Positions 6,454 to 45,427 of a stretch of 64,000 nucleotides of DNA are shown here, piece by piece. Within the stretch, counting starts at the first letter, position 1, and every line of letters begins with the position of its first letter. The stretch comes from Catenulispora sp. EB89 (GTDB taxonomy: Bacteria > Actinomycetota > Actinomycetes > Streptomycetales > Catenulisporaceae). A program made the position numbers and the translations under genes. The notes under the pieces are model-generated. The model was not told the origin of the DNA. It was given only the letters and a program-made list of their open reading frames with translations, and searched no databases. The stretch lies in NCBI RefSeq assembly GCF_041261445.1, contig NZ_JBGCCU010000008.1, forward strand, positions 248,001 to 312,000, given 5' to 3'.

Positions 6454-8127
6454 CTACCAGCCGACCGCGACCACCATGTACTGCGGGTTGGTCACCGAGA
6501 TGTCAGAGGACTGACCGGCGTCGTCGTCGTACGGGAAGCCGTACTGGGCGCCGTTGATCGCGTTCTGGTGCCAGAACTGTGCGTAGTAGTTGGCCGGCGC
6601 GGCCTGGTAGAAGTTCGCCGGGTTGGACTGCTGCGCCGCCGGCAGCTGCGCGACGTGCCGGTTCAGGCCGGCGCACAGCTGGGGGTTGTTCGCCATGGTG
6701 CCGCCGCACCCGAAGATCTGCGCGGTGGAATCGCTGGTGTCGCCGTTGGCTGCGGCGTAGCTCTGGAAGTAGTTCGCGTAGGCGCCGCCGGTCTGGAACG
6801 CCTTGTCGTTGCCCGGCGACGGGATGCCGTACGGCGCCTGGTCGGTCGCCAGTTCCTTGAACTCGGTCGGCACCGAGCTCTGGAACCGGCTGAAGGTCGC
6901 CGCCCGGGATTCCTGGAACGTGGCGTAGTTCTCGCCGACCTGCTGGTTGGATCCGTCGTGGCCGTGCAGCAGCAGGGCCAGCTTCAGGCCGAACCGGTCG
7001 ACGCGGGTGGTGTCCACGTTGATGAAGGTCGTGCCGACGGTGAACTCGATGAAGTCGTAGTACGGGCCGTTCGGCGTGCCGAGGTAGAAGTACATCCGGC
7101 CGGCCGAGTTCGCCGGCATGTCGACGTACGGCTGCTGGGCGATCGACTTGGTCTGGCCGTTGAAGCTCCAGAAGACCTGGCTGTCGGGGTACTGGCCGTT
7201 GGTCTGGTTGACGATCGACAGTTCCAGCACGTGGGTCGCCGGCGGAATGGCCGACGTGTTACCCCAGAACGCCGGCGGCGGAGCGCCGCCGGTGCCGCTG
7301 GTGCCCACGGTCCAGCTGAAGGTCGTGCTCCCCGACGCGCCGGTGGTGTCCCTGGCGGTGACCGTCACCGTGGAGCTGCCCGCCGTCGTCGCCGTGCCGG
7401 TGATCAGTCCGGTGCCGCTGATGGACAGTCCGGCCGGCAGGCCAGCGGCGCTGTAGCTCAGCGTCTGGCCGGAAGCCGAGTCGGTGGCCTGGATCTGCAG
7501 GGAGACAGAGCTGCCGGTCGCAGTGGTCTGATTGCCCGGATCGGTCACCGTCACGGCGTCGCCGGTGCCGCTGCCGGTGCCGAACACCTGGAACTCCCAC
7601 AGCGAGTAGTCCCACTGCGTGCCGCGGGCGGTGCCGTACATGCGGACGTAGCGGCCGCTGCCCGAGACGTTCAGCGTCTGCGTGCCGCCGGTGCCGGTCG
7701 TGGTCGAGGAGACCGTGGTCCAGCTCGCTCCGTCGGTGGACGTCTGGATCTGGAACGCCTTGCCGTACGCGGTCTCCCAGTGCAGGGCGACCTGGCACAG
7801 CGACTGCACCGAGCCGAGGTCCACCTGGACCCACTGCGGGTCGGAGAACTGCGAGGACCAGCGGGTGTTCAGGTTCCCGTCGAAGGCGTCGGCGGCCGGG
7901 AAGCTGGCGTTCTCCTGCGAGGAGGCGGTGGCGGGGTGGTTCAGCGCCAGGTCGGTGCCGGTGTCGCAGGTGGCCGCCGCCGCCTTCGGGGCGCCGGGCT
8001 GGCTCAGCGCCAACCCGGCGACGAGGGCCAGGACCGCCAGGACGATGGTCAGGGGTCTGCTACGGGGTCTGCTACGCGGTCGGTTGCGGGGTCTGCGGGC
8101 GGCCCGGGCGATGGATGCTGAGGACAA
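6454..8127 (-). CDS. Secreted GH64 beta-1,3-glucanase with F5/8C (CBM32-like) and Ig-like domains
   Basis: I place the start at a TTG (8127) preceded by GGAGAG, giving 557 aa. An Arg-rich n-region and hydrophobic core form a signal peptide ending near residue 52 (APKAAAA). Next come a discoidin/CBM32-like domain (about 56-187; NTRWSSQFSDPQWVQVDLG), an Ig-like putative domain (about 195-282; GLPAGLSISGTGLITGTA) and a GH64 thaumatin-like catalytic domain (about 290-557). Family GH64 releases laminaripentaose-type products from beta-1,3-glucan. DFIEFT and, 16 residues later, the Asp of TTRVD match the spacing of the known catalytic Glu/Asp pair. The long open extension to 8562 has no signal-like start and is probably non-coding. 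It shares its CBM32 domain and promoter region with the divergent gene at 8433. Confidence 0.88.
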   Translation of the reverse strand: MSSASIARAARRPRNRPRSRPRSRPLTIVLAVLALVAGLALSQPGAPKAAAATCDTGTDLALNHPATASSQENASFPAADAFDGNLNTRWSSQFSDPQWVQVDLGSVQSLCQVALHWETAYGKAFQIQTSTDGASWTTVSSTTTGTGGTQTLNVSGSGRYVRMYGTARGTQWDYSLWEFQVFGTGSGTGDAVTVTDPGNQTTATGSSVSLQIQATDSASGQTLSYSAAGLPAGLSISGTGLITGTATTAGSSTVTVTARDTTGASGSTTFSWTVGTSGTGGAPPPAFWGNTSAIPPATHVLELSIVNQTNGQYPDSQVFWSFNGQTKSIAQQPYVDMPANSAGRMYFYLGTPNGPYYDFIEFTVGTTFINVDTTRVDRFGLKLALLLHGHDGSNQQVGENYATFQESRAATFSRFQSSVPTEFKELATDQAPYGIPSPGNDKAFQTGGAYANYFQSYAAANGDTSDSTAQIFGCGGTMANNPQLCAGLNRHVAQLPAAQQSNPANFYQAAPANYYAQFWHQNAINGAQYGFPYDDDAGQSSDISVTNPQYMVVAVGW

Positions 8128-8330
8128 AGCTCTCTCCAGTACACGAGGAGGCGACGCTCCGTGCGTCGCGAGTGAATCAGCCTTCGTGCACCAGTCGGGA
8201 GGGCACCCTTGGTGGCTGATGTTGCGCCGGTGTTTCCGCGGTGTCAATCCCGGACCCGGTTCCGTAACCGATTTCGGTACCGGTTCCGGGCCGACGTGGG
8301 CGCCCGGGCCGGATCCGGCGGTCATGACTT

Positions 8331-8350
8331 GTTTCAAAGCTTGACGAAAC
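8331..8350. promoter_or_regulatory. Candidate ROK operator in the glucanase/CBM intergenic region
   Basis: GTTTCAAAGCTTGACGAAAC has GTTTC and GAAAC as inverted ends and lies in the 305-bp divergent intergenic region, about 83 bp before the CBM gene and 204 bp before the glucanase start. The 15-bp string TTGTTTCAAAGCTTG occurs again just upstream of the ROK regulator gene (11294-11308), which makes it a strong operator candidate for that protein. The rest of 8128-8330 holds only short GGTTCCG repeats. Confidence 0.65.
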
Positions 8351-8432
8351 TCCCCGGCGTCAATACCGTGCGACACGGCTGCCAGTCGGCCGGGGCATCG
8401 CAGAGCACGACACAAGTGATCGTGGAGCTGCC

Positions 8433-9992
8433 ATGAAGACAATCTCTCGCGCGGCGGGCATGTCGCTGCGCCGCCTGCTGGTCCTGGCCGCGGCCTGCGC
8501 CCTGGCCGCGGTGGGGCTGACGCAGGCCCCTGCGTTCGCGGCCGGGACCCCGCCGCCGGCACCGCTCAACCTGGGCATCACCGCCAACCCCGACTCCACG
8601 CTCTCGCTGAGCTGGGACCAGACGCCGGGGGCGACGTCGTACCACGTCTACCGCGGCACCGCGGCGGGCGGTGAGGCCGCGACGCCGATCGCGACGACGA
8701 CCGTCCCGAGCTACAACGACACCCACCTGAACACCACGCTGGACTACTTCTACGTGATCACCGCGGTGAACGCCGGCGGCGAGTCGCCCAAATCGGCCGA
8801 GGACTCCTCCCGGACCCCACCGCCGATCGGAACCGGCGGGAACACGCCTGGCACGGGCTCGGGCGGCTCGCTGGTCTACTACGGCAAGGACGCGCTGCTC
8901 GGCGGCTTCGACTGGTTCCCGACGCTGAGCGGCTGGTTCCCGCAGCTGCTCGGCTCCTCCGGGGCGCTCACGCCGGGCGGCCAGGTCGTCGACATGGCCT
9001 ACGCGGCGGAGGGAACGATGACGTTCGACGACGTCGTGGTGCCGACCGCCGGGCTGTACACGCTCGACTGGCGGTACGCCTTCGCGCAAGGGCTGTTCCC
9101 CGGCGTGAACTTCCGGGACATGCAGCTCGTGGTGAACGGCACGGTCATCACGTCGACCGAGCACTTCCCCGTGACCGGCAGCTTCGACGTGTATCAGCAC
9201 TCTGCGCTTCAGGTGCATCTGAACGCGGGTAAGAACTCGATCACGCTGGGCGCCACCAACGGCCACGGGGTCTCCCGCGTCGACGAGCTGACCGTGAGCC
9301 CGGCGACGGCCTCCGCGCCGAGCGGCCCGAGCAACCTGACCGGGTCCGCCGGCAGCGGGTCCGTCACGCTCAACTGGACGGCCGGCAGCGGCGCGACGTC
9401 CTACGGCGTCTACCGCGGCTCGACCATCTCCGACGGAGAGGCCACCACGCAGGTCGCCACGGTCGCCGGTACGAGCACGACGTTCACCGACACCGGCCTG
9501 AAGAACGGCACGACGTACTTCTACTTCGTCGCCGCGAACAACGCCACCGGCGTCTCGCCGGACTCGAACGAGATCTACACGAGTCCGGGCGAGGCCTCCT
9601 TCAGCGGGACCAACCTCGCGCTCAACGCGGACGCCTACGCCTCGTCGATCGAGGGCAACGGCACTCCGGCGGCGGCCGCGACGGACGGGTCGTTCAACAG
9701 CCGGTGGTCCAGCGCCGCCTCCGACCCGCAGTGGTTGATGGTCGACCTCGGAGCCGTGCACACGATCAAGCAAGTGGTTCTGTACTGGGAGAGCGCGTAC
9801 GCCAAGGCCTTCCAGATCCAGACCTCGAACGACGGGACCACCTGGACGACGGTCTACTCGACCACGACCGGCACCGGCGGCACGCAGAACCTCGCCGTCA
9901 CCGGCACGGGCCGCTACGTGCGGATGTACGGCACGCAGCGGGCCACCGGATACGGATACTCGCTCTGGGAGTTCCAGGTGTACGGGAGCTGA
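8433..9992 (+). CDS. Secreted carbohydrate-binding protein: FN3, CBM6/35-like, FN3, CBM32-like
   Basis: The 519-aa product has a signal peptide (cleavage near residue 36, APAFAAG), an FN3 domain (about 38-130), a beta-sandwich resembling CBM6/35 (about 142-290; GLYTLDWRYAF, INFRD-like and NSITLGATNGHG segments), a second FN3 (about 292-385) and a C-terminal F5/8C domain (about 390-519). No glycosidase active-site module is recognisable, so it may be a substrate-docking protein, or the middle domain may hide an unrecognised activity. The F5/8C domain is closely related to that of the divergent GH64 enzyme, with the shared stretch SLWEFQVYG. Conserved spacing to the operator at 8331-8350 suggests co-regulation with the glucanase. 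Confidence 0.75.
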   Translation: MKTISRAAGMSLRRLLVLAAACALAAVGLTQAPAFAAGTPPPAPLNLGITANPDSTLSLSWDQTPGATSYHVYRGTAAGGEAATPIATTTVPSYNDTHLNTTLDYFYVITAVNAGGESPKSAEDSSRTPPPIGTGGNTPGTGSGGSLVYYGKDALLGGFDWFPTLSGWFPQLLGSSGALTPGGQVVDMAYAAEGTMTFDDVVVPTAGLYTLDWRYAFAQGLFPGVNFRDMQLVVNGTVITSTEHFPVTGSFDVYQHSALQVHLNAGKNSITLGATNGHGVSRVDELTVSPATASAPSGPSNLTGSAGSGSVTLNWTAGSGATSYGVYRGSTISDGEATTQVATVAGTSTTFTDTGLKNGTTYFYFVAANNATGVSPDSNEIYTSPGEASFSGTNLALNADAYASSIEGNGTPAAAATDGSFNSRWSSAASDPQWLMVDLGAVHTIKQVVLYWESAYAKAFQIQTSNDGTTWTTVYSTTTGTGGTQNLAVTGTGRYVRMYGTQRATGYGYSLWEFQVYGS

Positions 9993-42826: not shown

Positions 42827-43210
42827 TTAGGCGTCTCCCGCCAGCAGCTTCCCGAACAGCTCCACCGTGCCCGGCAGGTCGCGCCGCAGTGTCGCCAGGT
42901 CCAGTCCCTCGTCGCCGACTACTGCCAGGAGGGCGTGCTCGCCGATGGCGGCGAAGACCACGTGGCCGCCGGCGGCGCGGATGACCGAGTCGCGGAGGCC
43001 GCCGAGGCCCATGTGGGCGGCGGTGCGGGTGCCGAGGGCCAGGCCGGCGGCGCAGAGGGCGGCGAGGGATTCCTGGTCGGCGGAGCCGGTGTCGGATGCC
43101 ACGAGGAGGCCGTCGGTGGTGGCGATGATGCTGTCGGTGACGCCGACGATCCGCTCGCGCAGGGCTTGGAGTTCGGTGACCACGGCTGTGGATGAGGTCG
43201 GTGGCTTCAC
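42827..43210 (-). CDS. Roadblock/LC7-like protein 1
   Basis: 127 aa from a GTG with GGAG six bases upstream. After a short N-terminus, the Roadblock/LC7 fold is evident: ERIVGVTDSIIATTDGLLVA (beta-hairpin with D-G), ESLAALCAAGLALGTRTAAH helix, and GGHVVFAAIGEHALLAVVGD. Bacterial Roadblock proteins regulate small GTPases (MglB for MglA) or act in conservon modules. It is last in a run of four minus-strand genes, 95 bp after the Pro-rich gene. Confidence 0.85.
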   Translation of the reverse strand: MKPPTSSTAVVTELQALRERIVGVTDSIIATTDGLLVASDTGSADQESLAALCAAGLALGTRTAAHMGLGGLRDSVIRAAGGHVVFAAIGEHALLAVVGDEGLDLATLRRDLPGTVELFGKLLAGDA

Positions 43211-43304
43211 GGCATGCTCCTTGGCACGTGTAGTGGTGCGGCCGAACGTCGCGCGGCCGAGGTGGCAGTCGGCTGATGGGGGCGTTGCGGGCTCGTGATG
43301 CCGG

Positions 43305-43730
43305 TCAGGGCAGCCGGTCGAGGACGTCGCGGAGGTGGCGCAGCGTCTGCTCCGCCGGTTGGGCCGGGGTGATCGCCGCCTGGCCCCGGAGCTGGGACGG
43401 TTGCGGCACGCGGCGCGGCAGCCGGGGATCGCGCGGCTCGGCCTCGGACGGCGCCGGGGCAGTGCCCTGCGTCGCCGAATCGTCTGGACCGCCGACCGGG
43501 CCGCCGCCCGGACCGCTACTCGGGCCGCCGCTCGGATCGCTACCTGGACCGCCGCCTGGTGCGGCAGTCGGCGCTGCCATCGGCTCGGTCGGCTGTATCG
43601 CCCCGGCCGGCTCGCGCGCTGCGGCCGCCCCGGCCGGCTCACATGGCCTGGCCGCCCCCGTCGCCTCGATCGGCGCCATCACGTAGGCGCCGCGCACGTC
43701 GTTTCCGGCCTCGCGGCCCGTGGGAATCAT
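43305..43730 (-). CDS. Pro/Gly/Ala-rich linker protein of the Roadblock cluster
   Basis: 141 aa with an ATG overlapping the stop of the PATAN gene (ATGA), which supports translation. The centre is a low-complexity Pro-Gly-Ser tract (PGGGPGSDPSGGPSSGPGGG), and the C-terminus is a predicted amphipathic helix (QPAEQTLRHLRDVLDRLP). I recognise no family. It could be a flexible scaffold or adaptor linking the Roadblock proteins. Confidence 0.55.
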   Translation of the reverse strand: MIPTGREAGNDVRGAYVMAPIEATGAARPCEPAGAAAAREPAGAIQPTEPMAAPTAAPGGGPGSDPSGGPSSGPGGGPVGGPDDSATQGTAPAPSEAEPRDPRLPRRVPQPSQLRGQAAITPAQPAEQTLRHLRDVLDRLP

Positions 43731-44566
43731 AAGCTGGCCCTTCCTGACGCGGTTCCACTTCCTGATGGGTCACGAGGCACCCGGCGCGGCAGCTCGCCCC
43801 GACTCTCCGGCCGGCCTTCCGCGGGCGCGGCGCGCCGCGCCGTGATCGGCAGCGCCGCCACGGCCCGGGGCGCCTCCCACTCCACGAGCCGCCGGGCCCG
43901 CAGGCGCGCGATGTCGAGCATCGCCGCGTACACCCCGCAGCCCAGGAAGAACGCGATGTCGCGCGGCGTCCGCCGGCCGTTCGCGGCGAGCAGCACAGCC
44001 TGCTGACGCGCGGTCAACGCGCCCGGTTCGACCCGCGTCGCCGGACGGCACCGCGCGGCGGCCAGCTCGGCGAGCGAGCCCCAGCTCCGGGTCAGCGCGG
44101 CGATCCGGCGCGCGGTCTCGTCCGCGAGCGTGCGCGGCGACTCGCCCGGCCACGCCGCCAACTCGGGCGGCACCGACCCCTCGTGCACGGTCCAGCCCTC
44201 CGCCGGGTTGAGCGCCATGGCGAAAGCGGCGTCGTAGACGGCTGCGATGCAGACCGCCTCGAGTTCCCCGTGGCCGATCAGCCCGAGGTCGGTGAGGACG
44301 GAATTCAAGTTCCCGTCGCCGTCCGCGCCCTCGGCGACAACAGCGGCGCGACGGCTGACCGCCGCAGCCCACTTGTCCTCGTCGACGCGCCCGGACCGGA
44401 TGAGCAACGTCTCGACCGACGGCGCGTTCGGCGTGTCCACCGCGACGACCAGCCCGCGTCGCAGATGGATCGTCCCGCCCGGAGCCCCGGACACCTCGAC
44501 GGCCCCGGTGAAGTCCTCGGCCAGCAGCTGCGCCAACAGCGCGGGAACGTTGCGCGCCGCATTCAT
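43727..44566 (-). CDS. PATAN/DUF4388-like protein with C-terminal winged-helix region
   Basis: The 279-aa product begins with a PATAN/DUF4388-like domain (about 1-70; EDFTGAVEVSGAPGGTIHLR, RGLVVAVDTPNAPSVETLLI). A central helical part follows, then a region that reads like a winged helix (about 190-240; LTARQQAVLLAANGRRTPRD with IARLRARRLVEWE). PATAN domains are linked in other bacteria to Roadblock proteins, response regulators and GTPases. It overlaps both neighbours by 4 bp (ATGA), so the cluster is tightly coupled. The tail is basic and disordered. Confidence 0.65.
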   Translation of the reverse strand: MNAARNVPALLAQLLAEDFTGAVEVSGAPGGTIHLRRGLVVAVDTPNAPSVETLLIRSGRVDEDKWAAAVSRRAAVVAEGADGDGNLNSVLTDLGLIGHGELEAVCIAAVYDAAFAMALNPAEGWTVHEGSVPPELAAWPGESPRTLADETARRIAALTRSWGSLAELAAARCRPATRVEPGALTARQQAVLLAANGRRTPRDIAFFLGCGVYAAMLDIARLRARRLVEWEAPRAVAALPITARRAAPAEGRPESRGELPRRVPRDPSGSGTASGRASL

Positions 44567-44928
44567 GTCAGAATGCTCTCTGCCAGATCAGCGGCCTCAC
44601 GCACCGCCAACGCGAGATTCGAGCGCTCCCGCTCCAGCACCAGAACCAGCATCACCGCGTTCAGCGGCGACCGCCCCGGCACCGCCTGTACCACCTCGTG
44701 CAGCCGGCTCCCGGTGATCACGACGCTCTCCAGCTCGCCCTGCGCCCCGGCCTCGTGCAAGCCCTCGGTGATCAGCCCGGTGAGTTCCGCCATCTCGAAT
44801 CCCGTACCGACCGCCGAAAAGTCGCCCGCCGCGCGGTATGTCAGACCCGTGACCTCGTCCACCAAAGCGGCTCCGATTACTCCAGGAGATTCGAACGCTG
44901 CGGAGAGCGACATTTCCAAGCCGGGCAC
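44563..44928 (-). CDS. Roadblock/LC7-like protein 2
   Basis: 121 aa (start at 44928 or the internal ATG at 44913). ESPGVIGAALVDEVTGLTYR gives the first hairpin, EMAELTGLITEGLHEAGAQG the first helix, ESVVITGSRLHEVVQAVP the central strands and LERERSNLALAVREAADLAE the last helix. This is the Roadblock/LC7 arrangement in a divergent form. It is the first gene of the minus-strand run and divergent from the paralogue at 45062. Confidence 0.75.
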   Translation of the reverse strand: MPGLEMSLSAAFESPGVIGAALVDEVTGLTYRAAGDFSAVGTGFEMAELTGLITEGLHEAGAQGELESVVITGSRLHEVVQAVPGRSPLNAVMLVLVLERERSNLALAVREAADLAESILT

Positions 44929-44965
44929 CGGAACCCCTTCACGTCGCGATATGTGTCAGGTTACT

Positions 44966-44985
44966 TTAGTCGCCGACTGGACTAA
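44966..44985. promoter_or_regulatory. Inverted repeat between divergent Roadblock genes
   Basis: TTAGTC-GCCGACTG-GACTAA lies midway in the 133-bp region between the genes starting at 44928 and 45062. It is a candidate shared operator for both directions. Confidence 0.45.
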
Positions 44986-45061
44986 CGGCGAGCTCGGATC
45001 CAATTCCCTGCGAGCCCGTGATCGGCAGCCACGAAAAATTCCGGAGTGAGGAAGTCCGCCC

Positions 45062-45427
45062 ATGAACATCGAAGCCGCGCTGAAAGAAGCGATGACGGTC
45101 GACGGCGCCCTCGGCGTGGCCCTGGTCGACTACGAGAGCGGCATGTCCCTGGGCTTCCTCGGCGGCGGCCCCGGCCTGGACCTGGAGGTCGCCGCGGCCG
45201 GGAACACCGAGGTCGTGCGGGCGAAGATGCGCACGCTGGCCCGGCTCGGCCTGAACGAGACCGTGGAGGACATCCTCATCACCCTCACCGGCCAGTACCA
45301 CGTGATCCGCCTGCTGCCGAGCGCCGGCGGCGCCCTGTTCCTCTACCTCGCGCTCGACCGCTCGCGCGCCAACCTGGCGCTGGCCCGGCACGAGCTCCGC
45401 CGGATCGGCTCGCTTGTCGAGGCCTGA
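45062..45427 (+). CDS. Roadblock/LC7-like protein 3
   Basis: 121 aa, ATG with GAGGAAG seven bases upstream. VDGALGVALVDYESGMSLGF forms the first hairpin, NTEVVRAKMRTLARLGLNET the helix, EDILITLTGQYHVIRLLPS and GALFLYLALDRSRANLALAR the end. It is a close paralogue of protein 2 in length and in its RANLAL/RSNLAL terminal helix. Three Roadblock-like proteins together suggest hetero-oligomers. Confidence 0.75.
   Translation: MNIEAALKEAMTVDGALGVALVDYESGMSLGFLGGGPGLDLEVAAAGNTEVVRAKMRTLARLGLNETVEDILITLTGQYHVIRLLPSAGGALFLYLALDRSRANLALARHELRRIGSLVEA

Follow-up and report, generated by a model that had tools for sequence, protein, structure and literature searches.

How might a cluster that encodes Roadblock-like proteins and a PATAN-type regulator function when no GTPase gene lies beside it? 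The question is raised by five neighboring genes in the window (the whole 64,000-nucleotide stretch of DNA that was analyzed), which derives from the genus Catenulispora. A preliminary description had placed five ORFs in 2.6 kb, and all of them were present (Table 1), although the ORF caller was simple, such that genes can be missed and starts misplaced. RB1, PRO, PATAN, and RB2 form a series on the minus strand, RB3 is divergent on the plus strand, and the ATGA-type overlaps claimed for PRO/PATAN and PATAN/RB2 were confirmed in the sequence. Comparison with C. rubra yielded dN/dS values of 0.10 (RB1), 0.19 (RB2), 0.25 (RB3), 0.31 (PATAN), and 0.46 (PRO), with 0.16 and 0.03 for two control genes. 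The least secure element of the description is the inverted repeat reported between the divergent genes, TTAGTC-8-GACTAA: it is present, but a 181-bp stretch contains seven 6-bp inverted repeats or palindromes, this one included, and it is kept in three of five Catenulispora and not in the other two; it may therefore be a product of chance. As had been described, no GTPase, kinase, or DUF742 gene was found near the locus, and about 119 kb separates it from the closest PF03029 match on the contig.

Table 1. Coordinates (window numbering) of the genes, motifs, and repeat of the cluster
Feature	Position	Strand	Description	Basis or remark
RB1	42827..43210	-	Roadblock/LC7 protein, MglB/CvnB type	PF03259, 55.5 bits
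PRO	43305..43730	-	Pro/Gly-rich ORF	overlaps PATAN
Helix-like end of PRO	43308..43352	-	EQTLRHLRDVLDRLP	post hoc pattern 'pat2'
LPRR motif in PRO	43410..43421	-		sequence
PATAN	43727..44566	-	DUF4388-like N-terminal part, winged-helix-like region, and disordered tail	
LPRR motif, PATAN tail	43781..43792	-	residues 259-262	
Winged-helix-like region of PATAN	43877..44020	-	residues 183-230	MarR_2 matches in homologues
RB2	44563..44928	-	diverged RB3 paralogue	profile match to RB3, 98.75%
Inverted repeat TTAGTC-8-GACTAA	44966..44985		between divergent genes RB2 and RB3	
RB3	45062..45427	+	Roadblock-fold protein, strongly conserved	no curated family

Families of the Roadblock-like proteins

Three of the products had been described as Roadblock-like, with HMM searches suggested as a check. 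RB1 was recognized by Pfam, scoring 55.5 bits to Robl_LC7 (PF03259) against a curated cut-off of 23 (the scanned sequence had one extra codon at its start), whereas RB2 and RB3 matched no Pfam model, Robl_LC7 included, and no NCBIfam model above cut-off; the description holds for RB3 by its predicted fold and for RB2 as a paralogue of RB3. The RB1 family profile matched solved Roadblocks with E values down to 1.2e-26, and RB1 is homologous to the conservon protein CvnB (profile match of 98.5%). On an unrooted tree, which has several long branches and does not distinguish loss from gain of the GTPase, all 62 GTPase-less Roadblocks, including RB1, fell on one side of a branch with 97/98 support, and the Roadblocks of the module formed a single lineage separate from CvnB. 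The 'oxyR' label on this tree was assigned by gene length and is wrong in three rows. Within the genome of origin, a PF03029 GTPase lies within about 1 kb at seven of the eight PF03259 loci, and RB1 is the sole locus without one nearby.

The accessible part of PMC4316618 describes an actinobacterial MglB clade that is exclusively orphan and not flanked by conservon genes, reports PATAN genes near MglA/MglB, cites Makarova 2006 for MglB near PATAN, and states (in 2014) that no orphan MglB had been experimentally characterized. Judged by description and not by accession, RB1 is probably of the same kind as this clade, both being actinobacterial Roadblocks without GTPase or conservon neighbors. 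The term "undescribed," as first applied to the module, is therefore too strong. The PATAN partner, RB2, RB3, and the tail motifs set the cluster apart from the clade as described in that part of PMC4316618, and no paper that combines DUF4388 with roadblock was found in the literature searched. The cluster gives orphan MglB proteins defined candidate partners and testable motifs.

The AlphaFold2 model of RB3 (pLDDT 86.4, pTM 0.81) has a predicted Roadblock fold with the order a-b-b-a-b-b-b-a. MglC (7ct3) ranked first by Foldseek E-value (3.7e-6), yet it fell below MglB in TM-score (0.63 versus about 0.78) and in VIA Z, the latter being about 16 to LAMTOR2, MglB (15.8), and a Streptomyces Roadblock and 13.1 to MglC. 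When RB3 profiles were compared with PDB sequences, nothing significant was obtained and MglC was not found; Roadblock chains appeared at E values of 0.096 and 0.29. Among 25 aligned members of the RB2/RB3 type, Robl_LC7 gave one match (E 0.0053), and comparison of RB3 and RB2 with PHROGs gave a single match at chance level. RB3 represents a highly conserved family that is not recognized above cut-off by Pfam, NCBIfam, or PHROGs. Its identity with CvnF was considered and rejected, CvnF8 being a GAF protein according to the accessible part of PMC13343842.

The RB2 and RB3 profiles matched at 98.75%, and the match to RB1 was 30% for RB2 and just 2.8% for RB3 (rows of RB3 exceeding 220 aa were left out of the comparison, and one RB3 sequence set mixed RB2-type with RB3-type rows); their kinship to RB1 therefore rests on fold. 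After removal of one spurious antisense row, the genes directly upstream of PATAN separated from the other RB3-type rows with a support of 0.979 and none misplaced, and the RB2 lineage was found to evolve faster, with a median pairwise identity of 0.41 versus 0.67 in RB3.

The PATAN protein, its tail motifs, and PRO

The PATAN protein of the window exceeded the cut-off of neither Pfam nor NCBIfam models and gave no direct match to PF14332 (DUF4388), and no DUF4388 match was found in its own genome. An alignment was made of 29 of its 71 homologues, five of the 29 being GTPase-linked; at E values of 1 or less, 23 of these matched DUF4388 and 13 matched MarR_2 (best, 1.2e-4), the latter giving no match to the window protein itself. 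Two GTPase-linked PATAN proteins scored 84.8 and 91.5 bits to DUF4388, and the profiles of the GTPase-less and GTPase-linked proteins matched at 99.3% over 215 columns. The combination of DUF4388 and a winged-helix-like end, which had been proposed initially, is borne out indirectly, by homology to relatives that match better. AlphaFold prediction of PATAN from two sequences failed (pLDDT 38). The C-terminal part is weakly similar to DUF742/CvnC (24-40% probability); in one run the probability was 30%, and among 30 column-shuffled controls one or more scored 130.6, far higher than the 28.4 of the real alignment. We regard homology of this part to DUF742 as a weak lead, and a literature search found no paper linking DUF742 with a winged helix.

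The tail of the protein carries an LPRR motif that was found in the last 120 residues of 27 of 63 GTPase-less PATAN proteins, and was missing in the other 36, compared with 1 of 1030 unlabelled proteins from the fetched loci. It resembles the LPxR motif of conservon kinases, which occurred in the last 200 residues of 13 of 14 such kinases (shuffled mean, 1.8). Many PATAN tails finish in a helix. The pattern 'pat2' for a helix-like end fitted 5/5 PRO, 20/63 GTPase-less PATAN, 8/8 GTPase-linked PATAN, and 3/1251 background sequences, and a second helix-end pattern fitted none of the five PRO sequences; the motif patterns were picked after the data had been seen, and the sequences are related by descent. 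An ORF that overlaps PATAN and has LPRRVP and a similar end is present in all five module-bearing Catenulispora. On the basis of LPRR and the helix-like terminus, PRO is probably a detached C-terminal tail of PATAN in Catenulispora, a resemblance of the Pro-rich ORF that the preliminary description had not mentioned. No detached helix was found after PATAN at three loci on the RB1 branch of the window (L067, L073, and L080).

Recurrence of the cluster and the GTPase

Clusters similar to that of the window recur in four families (f1, f2, f18, and f19), one of which (f2) we infer to be Streptomyces, and the neighborhood is thus conserved, so that the first observation named as able to refute the description, a lack of conservation in relatives, was not made. 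PATAN matches were found in 60 genomes, and wider stretches were obtained from 56 of them (all except G122, G224, G273, and G292), with some places left out. The resulting 65 PATAN rows represent 64 loci, L009 and L139 being the same C. rubra locus; L086 and L096 are outside the set because the gene caller missed their PATAN gene. Within six genes of PATAN, RB1 was present in 61 rows, an RB3-type gene in 54 (the RB2-type of f2 included), and a conservon kinase or DUF742 in none. A GTPase that always lies just outside homologous clusters had been named as the second refuting observation, which was not made either: one was found within the same distance in only 2 of the 65 rows, being absent in 63. 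L080 has GTPase, DUF742, and CvnB genes in a conservon that begins seven genes from PATAN, outside the six-gene count. The more distant relatives examined were Roadblock-PATAN-GTPase triads in 8 of 8 cases (two GTPase rows and six weak-hit relatives). Because all of these carry the GTPase, the cluster appears to derive from a known switch, with the GTPase most simply having left the locus; loss as the direction of evolution is the reading that we infer from the sequences. The PATAN-MglA/MglB neighborhoods in the accessible part of PMC4316618 likewise place a Roadblock beside a DUF4388 protein, and the related triads retain an MglA-type GTPase that the window lineage lacks.

We propose, and give an even chance to, the reading that the cluster is an MglA/MglB switch that has shed its GTPase and in which a Roadblock scaffold holds PATAN by its tail and controls its output. 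RB1 (MglB-like), RB3 (MglC-like), and RB2 as the diverged paralogue of RB3 would form the scaffold, and PATAN, as a winged-helix regulator, would dock onto it through its disordered tail by means of LPRR and the C-terminal helix; in Catenulispora, part of the docking tail would be encoded separately as PRO, making these five proteins the presumptive binding partners. Assembly and disassembly of the scaffold would be set by some input, possibly a GTPase encoded elsewhere, should any GTPase participate, and the state of the scaffold would govern PATAN activity, most likely DNA binding as the putative output. Such docking would also suggest what the so far unexplained LPxR motif does in conservon kinases, namely bind Roadblocks.

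A close counterpart among described systems is the MglA/MglB/MglC/RomR polarity switch of Myxococcus xanthus, in which MglC has two binding partners, MglB and the RomR C-terminal helix (PMC10329633, PMC12719032, and PMC7949163, in their accessible parts). The cluster likewise has an MglB-like Roadblock (RB1), a second Roadblock with MglC as its best Foldseek hit (RB3), and, comparable to RomR, a regulator that combines a disordered region with a C-terminal helix. Unlike the M. xanthus switch, the cluster lacks a GTPase gene, PATAN and its winged helix take the place of the receiver domain, and RB3 is linked to MglC by fold and not by profile. Conservons (AGPS; CvnA-CvnB-CvnC-CvnD) share with the cluster the CvnB-type Roadblock, an LPxR-type motif (CvnA), and the faint CvnC/DUF742 similarity of the PATAN C-terminal part, whereas the cluster lacks kinase, DUF742, and GTPase genes and has RB2, RB3, and PATAN in addition.

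As the preliminary description had suggested, the module could instead work with a GTPase in trans, with RB1 as GAP or partner either of a conservon CvnD or of a solitary GTPase, an explanation that we hold tentatively and at clearly less than an even chance. PF03029 matches were present in all 55 genomes searched (which cover part of the module-bearing genomes), at least two in each, though not all are necessarily of the MglA type, and RB3 paralogues adjoin conservons at L060, L077, L134, L137, L075, and L155. The genome of origin has a solitary conservon-type GTPase (C24:80103-80687), with no PF03259 place beside it, that is conserved at 95-98% in the four other module-bearing Catenulispora; it also occurs in G297, G298 (81% complete), and G300, in which no window-type RB3 was found, and the notion that it tracks the module within Catenulispora is unsupported. 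The separation of the module Roadblocks from the conservon CvnB lineage also speaks against a partner in trans.

RB3 outside the cluster

RB3 belongs to a much wider family than was first described, with members in Actinomycetota, Deinococcota, Pseudomonadota, Bacteroidota, and phage contigs. Relatives were found on plasmids of four phyla (28 records, of which 12 were examined): the cluster layout also occurs on a Streptomyces plasmid, an Acinetobacter plasmid has the layout Roadblock-321 aa-RB3, and an Agarilytica plasmid carries RB3-BLUF-GTPase-Roadblock. RB3 stands alone in phage contigs and is solo in 13 of 134 rows. For three contigs, the plasmid and phage rows of this set contain a phage locus in duplicate. 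The RB3 of L160 gave no match to the phage collection, and no paper pairing the roadblock domain with the term phage-encoded was found in the literature searched. Ten further RB3 loci of the phylum were inspected: at four of them (L201, L202, L203, and L209) both a GTPase and a Roadblock are encoded nearby, and three are without recognized partners. The loci that join RB3 to a GTPase and a Roadblock, the Agarilytica plasmid among them, favor the proposed derivation from an MglA/MglB switch, and the RB3 loci without recognized partners speak against it.

The Streptomyces and Acinetobacter plasmid layouts are consistent with a further explanation, that the GTPase disappeared without a substitute, leaving a nucleotide-free Roadblock switch in which RB2 and RB3 take over and the input arrives through PATAN or a ligand. 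The lack of a GTPase within six genes in nearly all PATAN rows and the adjoining of the faster-evolving RB2 lineage to PATAN in GTPase-less clusters point the same way, but PF03029 proteins occur in every genome searched and some RB3 loci have kept a GTPase, and we consider this explanation unlikely. A bolder form, quite unlikely in our estimation, is that three Roadblocks steer a DNA-binding PATAN without nucleotide, using LPRR and the terminal helix as a docking code that conservon kinases would also use, and that the MglC-like RB3 is a portable signaling part, borne by plasmids of several phyla and singly by phages, that acts on host Roadblock systems.

Orphan MglB clades and PATAN-MglA/MglB neighborhoods are already in print (PMC4316618, accessible part); judged by sequence, the details added here are LPRR in PATAN tails, PRO as a putative detached tail, RB3 on plasmids and phages, and a DUF4388-RB3 fusion. 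That RB3 and Roadblocks are also found alone or near unrelated genes would fit a loose collection of neighbors with unrelated functions. This we regard as very improbable: the synteny recurs in four families, the genes overlap, the RB2 lineage is tied to PATAN, and at one locus (L161) DUF4388 and RB3 are fused in a single polypeptide.

A Roadblock/PATAN cluster with no GTPase gene beside it

The five genes of the cluster (see the table) lie in an 11.9-Mb genome, flanked by an MFS transporter gene at one end and by LysR-type regulator and EamA transporter genes at the other. The only relative among the named genome contigs was Catenulispora rubra DSM 44948, whose PATAN protein is 92% identical; in comparison with this species the five genes gave dN/dS values of 0.10 to 0.46, and two control genes gave 0.16 and 0.03. 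The Catenulispora sp. EB89 genome contains eight places matching the Roadblock model Robl_LC7 and eight matching the GTPase model PF03029. A GTPase lies within about 1 kb at seven of the eight Roadblock places, leaving that of the window as the only one without, which bears out the claim of the preliminary description that the cluster lacks a GTPase. Much the same held when neighborhoods were compared across genomes. PATAN homologues were detected in 60 of the 296 genomes of the class sample, and within six genes of PATAN in the 65 gene-called rows (one locus being counted twice) RB1, an RB3-type gene, RB2 (assigned by best profile), and a GTPase were present in 61, 54, 8, and 2 rows, respectively. 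No row had a conservon kinase or DUF742 gene within this range; in the L080 locus a conservon begins seven genes away, beyond the count. A P-loop scan of the neighborhoods returned 34 proteins, of which two were labeled MglA/CvnD-type GTPases. A GTPase might act on the module in trans: PF03029 matches occurred in all 55 genomes searched, and the EB89 genome encodes a solitary conservon-type GTPase without Roadblock neighbors (contig C24) that is kept in several Catenulispora. Its close relatives in this genus occur both with and without the module.

Positions of the cluster genes and of related loci
Feature	Source	Position	Strand
RB1	window	42827-43210	-
PRO	window	43305-43730	-
PATAN	window	43727-44566	-
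RB2	window	44563-44928	-
RB3	window	45062-45427	+
Solitary GTPase	L133 (G000:C24:80103-80687)	8104-8691	
Second f2 form	L076	8436-10325	
RB3 paralogue beside conservon	L060	8246-8620	
DUF4388/RB3 fusion	viral contig L161	2473-3357	
RB3	viral contig L176	6001-6354	
RB3	viral contig L177	6001-6354	
RB3	viral contig L178	6001-6354	
RB3	viral contig L179	6001-6357	
Roadblock-321 aa-RB3	Acinetobacter plasmid L165	47-1924	
RB3-BLUF-GTPase-Roadblock	Agarilytica plasmid L171	4998-7066	
Gene upstream of RB3	Hymenobacter plasmid L167	4469-4897	
Tandem RB3 genes	Comamonas plasmid L164	4216-5354	

The gene order varies among families. Families f2 (presumably Streptomyces) and f18 have a same-direction RB2/3-PATAN-RB1-RB3 order, the divergent layout of the window is shared by Catenulispora, genomes G191 and G267, and a named Streptomyces plasmid that carries it complete, and in family f19 RB1-RB3 diverge from PATAN. 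A second f2 form consists of PATAN, RB1, and a 142 aa protein that profile comparison identifies as another Roadblock (97.9% to RB1). This GTPase-less form was seen at L076, with similar loci at L068, L078, L084, L085, L088, and L095. The genes preceding it in L076 and L078 resemble OxyR- and AhpC-type genes, which would hint at a link to oxidative stress.

GTPase-linked relatives and the PATAN tail

All eight relatives examined, comprising the two GTPase exceptions and six weak-hit relatives (a weak match in G273 was left out), were Roadblock-PATAN-GTPase triads; DUF4388 scores for two of their PATANs were 91.5 and 84.8 bits, and PF03029 scored 75.2 bits for one GTPase. Profiles of the GTPase-less and GTPase-linked PATANs aligned at 99.3%. 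RB1 was the sole cluster protein to match Pfam above the cut-off, and the PATAN of the window had no Pfam match. The 29 homologues aligned included five GTPase-linked ones; 23 of the 29 matched DUF4388 and 13 matched MarR_2 at E ≤ 1, and DUF4388 matched the homologue on the Streptomyces plasmid below the cut-off (E = 0.0012). In a tree of 82 Roadblock sequences, unrooted and with several long branches, the 62 GTPase-less ones all fell on one side of a branch with 97/98 support, the other side holding CvnB of conservons and the Roadblocks of the triads. The simplest reading, in which the direction is inferred, is that the GTPase left the locus once. PMC4316618 already describes orphan MglB clades and PATAN-MglA/MglB neighborhoods; among the matches listed from open-licence full text, no paper dealt with this cluster, with RB3 as a family, or with the motifs in the PATAN tail.

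Many f2 and f18 PATANs have at their C-terminus a Pro-rich tail followed by a helix-like stretch, for example DPDIALLRRLRDALEAL; the triad PATANs have SLLLRLIAGVRGL or a similar sequence there. In all five Catenulispora with the module PATAN is without such an end, and the next ORF, in another frame, contains LPRRVP and terminates in a stretch such as EQTLRHLRDVLDRLP. Because the end missing from PATAN is present in the following ORF, PRO looks from these sequences like a detached PATAN tail; L067, L073, and L080 showed no such ORF after PATAN. Of the 63 GTPase-less PATANs, 27 had LPRR within their final 120 residues, compared with 1 of 1030 unlabeled and 1 of 26 Pro-rich proteins encoded at the loci analyzed. 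LPxR was present within the final 200 residues in 13 of 14 CvnA proteins (shuffled mean, 1.8). In both cases the patterns were picked post hoc and the sequences are related. PMC4316618 notes that conservon kinases carry a conserved LPxR motif, of unknown function, in their C-terminal extension. A Roadblock would be the partner common to PATAN and these kinases, and we therefore propose that LPxR may dock on Roadblock.

RB3 and a possible Mgl-like assembly

RB3 matched no Pfam, NCBIfam, or PHROGs model above the cut-off. Its predicted structure (from nine sequences; pLDDT 86.4, pTM 0.81) has the helix and strand order of a Roadblock, and Foldseek returned Myxococcus xanthus MglC with the lowest E-value (24% identity, TM 0.63), with MglB, further Roadblocks, and LAMTOR2 ranking next; VIA-align Z values were 16.2, 15.8, and 13.1 for LAMTOR2, MglB, and MglC, respectively. 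By profile comparison RB2 and RB3 are homologous (98.75% match) and form two lineages (support 0.979, with no row misplaced and one spurious row left out), the RB2 lineage comprising 40 genes directly upstream of PATAN, including Catenulispora RB2. RB3 is the most conserved part by identity: for the window proteins, median identities to sets from f2 and f18 were 60% for RB3 (whose set mixes RB2-type and RB3-type rows), 35% for RB1, and 33% for PATAN.

In M. xanthus, an MglC homodimer lies between two MglB homodimers (PMC7949163), MglC binds RomR via RomR's C-terminal helix (PMC12719032, PMC10329633), and MglA-GTP disrupts the MglC-MglB contact (PMC10329633). By analogy with this system, RB1 would correspond to MglB and RB3 to MglC, the tail of PATAN or PRO would take the place of the RomR helix, and the winged helix could be the output of the assembly.

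RB3 on plasmids, in viral contigs, and beside conservons

A profile search detected RB3 in 18 of the 296 genomes of the phylum sample. Ten loci from it comprised four with both a GTPase and a Roadblock in the vicinity (L201, L202, L203, and L209), two with RB1, with or without PATAN, and no GTPase (L206 and L207), three with no Roadblock, PATAN, or GTPase (L200, L205, and L208), and one in which no RB3 gene was called (L204). RB3 was also found in 28 plasmid records, annotated as a hypothetical protein in 21 and with nothing annotated there in 7, from hosts including Streptomyces, Deinococcus, Hymenobacter, Comamonas, Acinetobacter, and Agarilytica. Among the 12 plasmid neighborhoods examined, a conjugative Acinetobacter plasmid carries Roadblock-321 aa-RB3, the 321 aa protein matching no Pfam family; a basic helix-like stretch was seen at its end. 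The Agarilytica gene run RB3-BLUF-GTPase-Roadblock is possibly a light-regulated version of the switch. In Deinococcus, RB3 follows a DUF4388 gene and reads in two overlapping frames. The examined stretches of the remaining plasmids had no Roadblock (RB1/CvnB type), PATAN, or GTPase match. In the Hymenobacter plasmid L167, the gene immediately upstream of RB3 is weakly RB3-like (E = 3e-3), and a gene of similar length at that position in L175 had no match. The Comamonas plasmid has two tandem RB3 genes, with a response regulator and a kinase-like ATP-binding protein as neighbors.

In viral contig L161, DUF4388 (61 bits) and RB3 are parts of a single 295 aa protein that has a Pro-rich linker. 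Four further viral contigs had no Roadblock, PATAN, or GTPase match beside RB3 in the examined stretch. Neighbors were tested in three: RB3 is near an anti-termination Q-like gene in L176, precedes HNH endonuclease, terminase, and portal genes in L177, and adjoins terminase and portal genes in L179. In these four contigs RB3 appears to be an accessory gene of phages, and it could influence Roadblock systems of the host.

RB3 paralogues were also seen adjacent to conservons (L060, L077, L134, L137, L075, and L155), divergent from cvnA in the first four. Going by its N-terminal residues, CvnA of L060 seems to have a single membrane helix and to lack an outer sensor domain, which recalls the setting of the CvnF/CvnE accessory genes.
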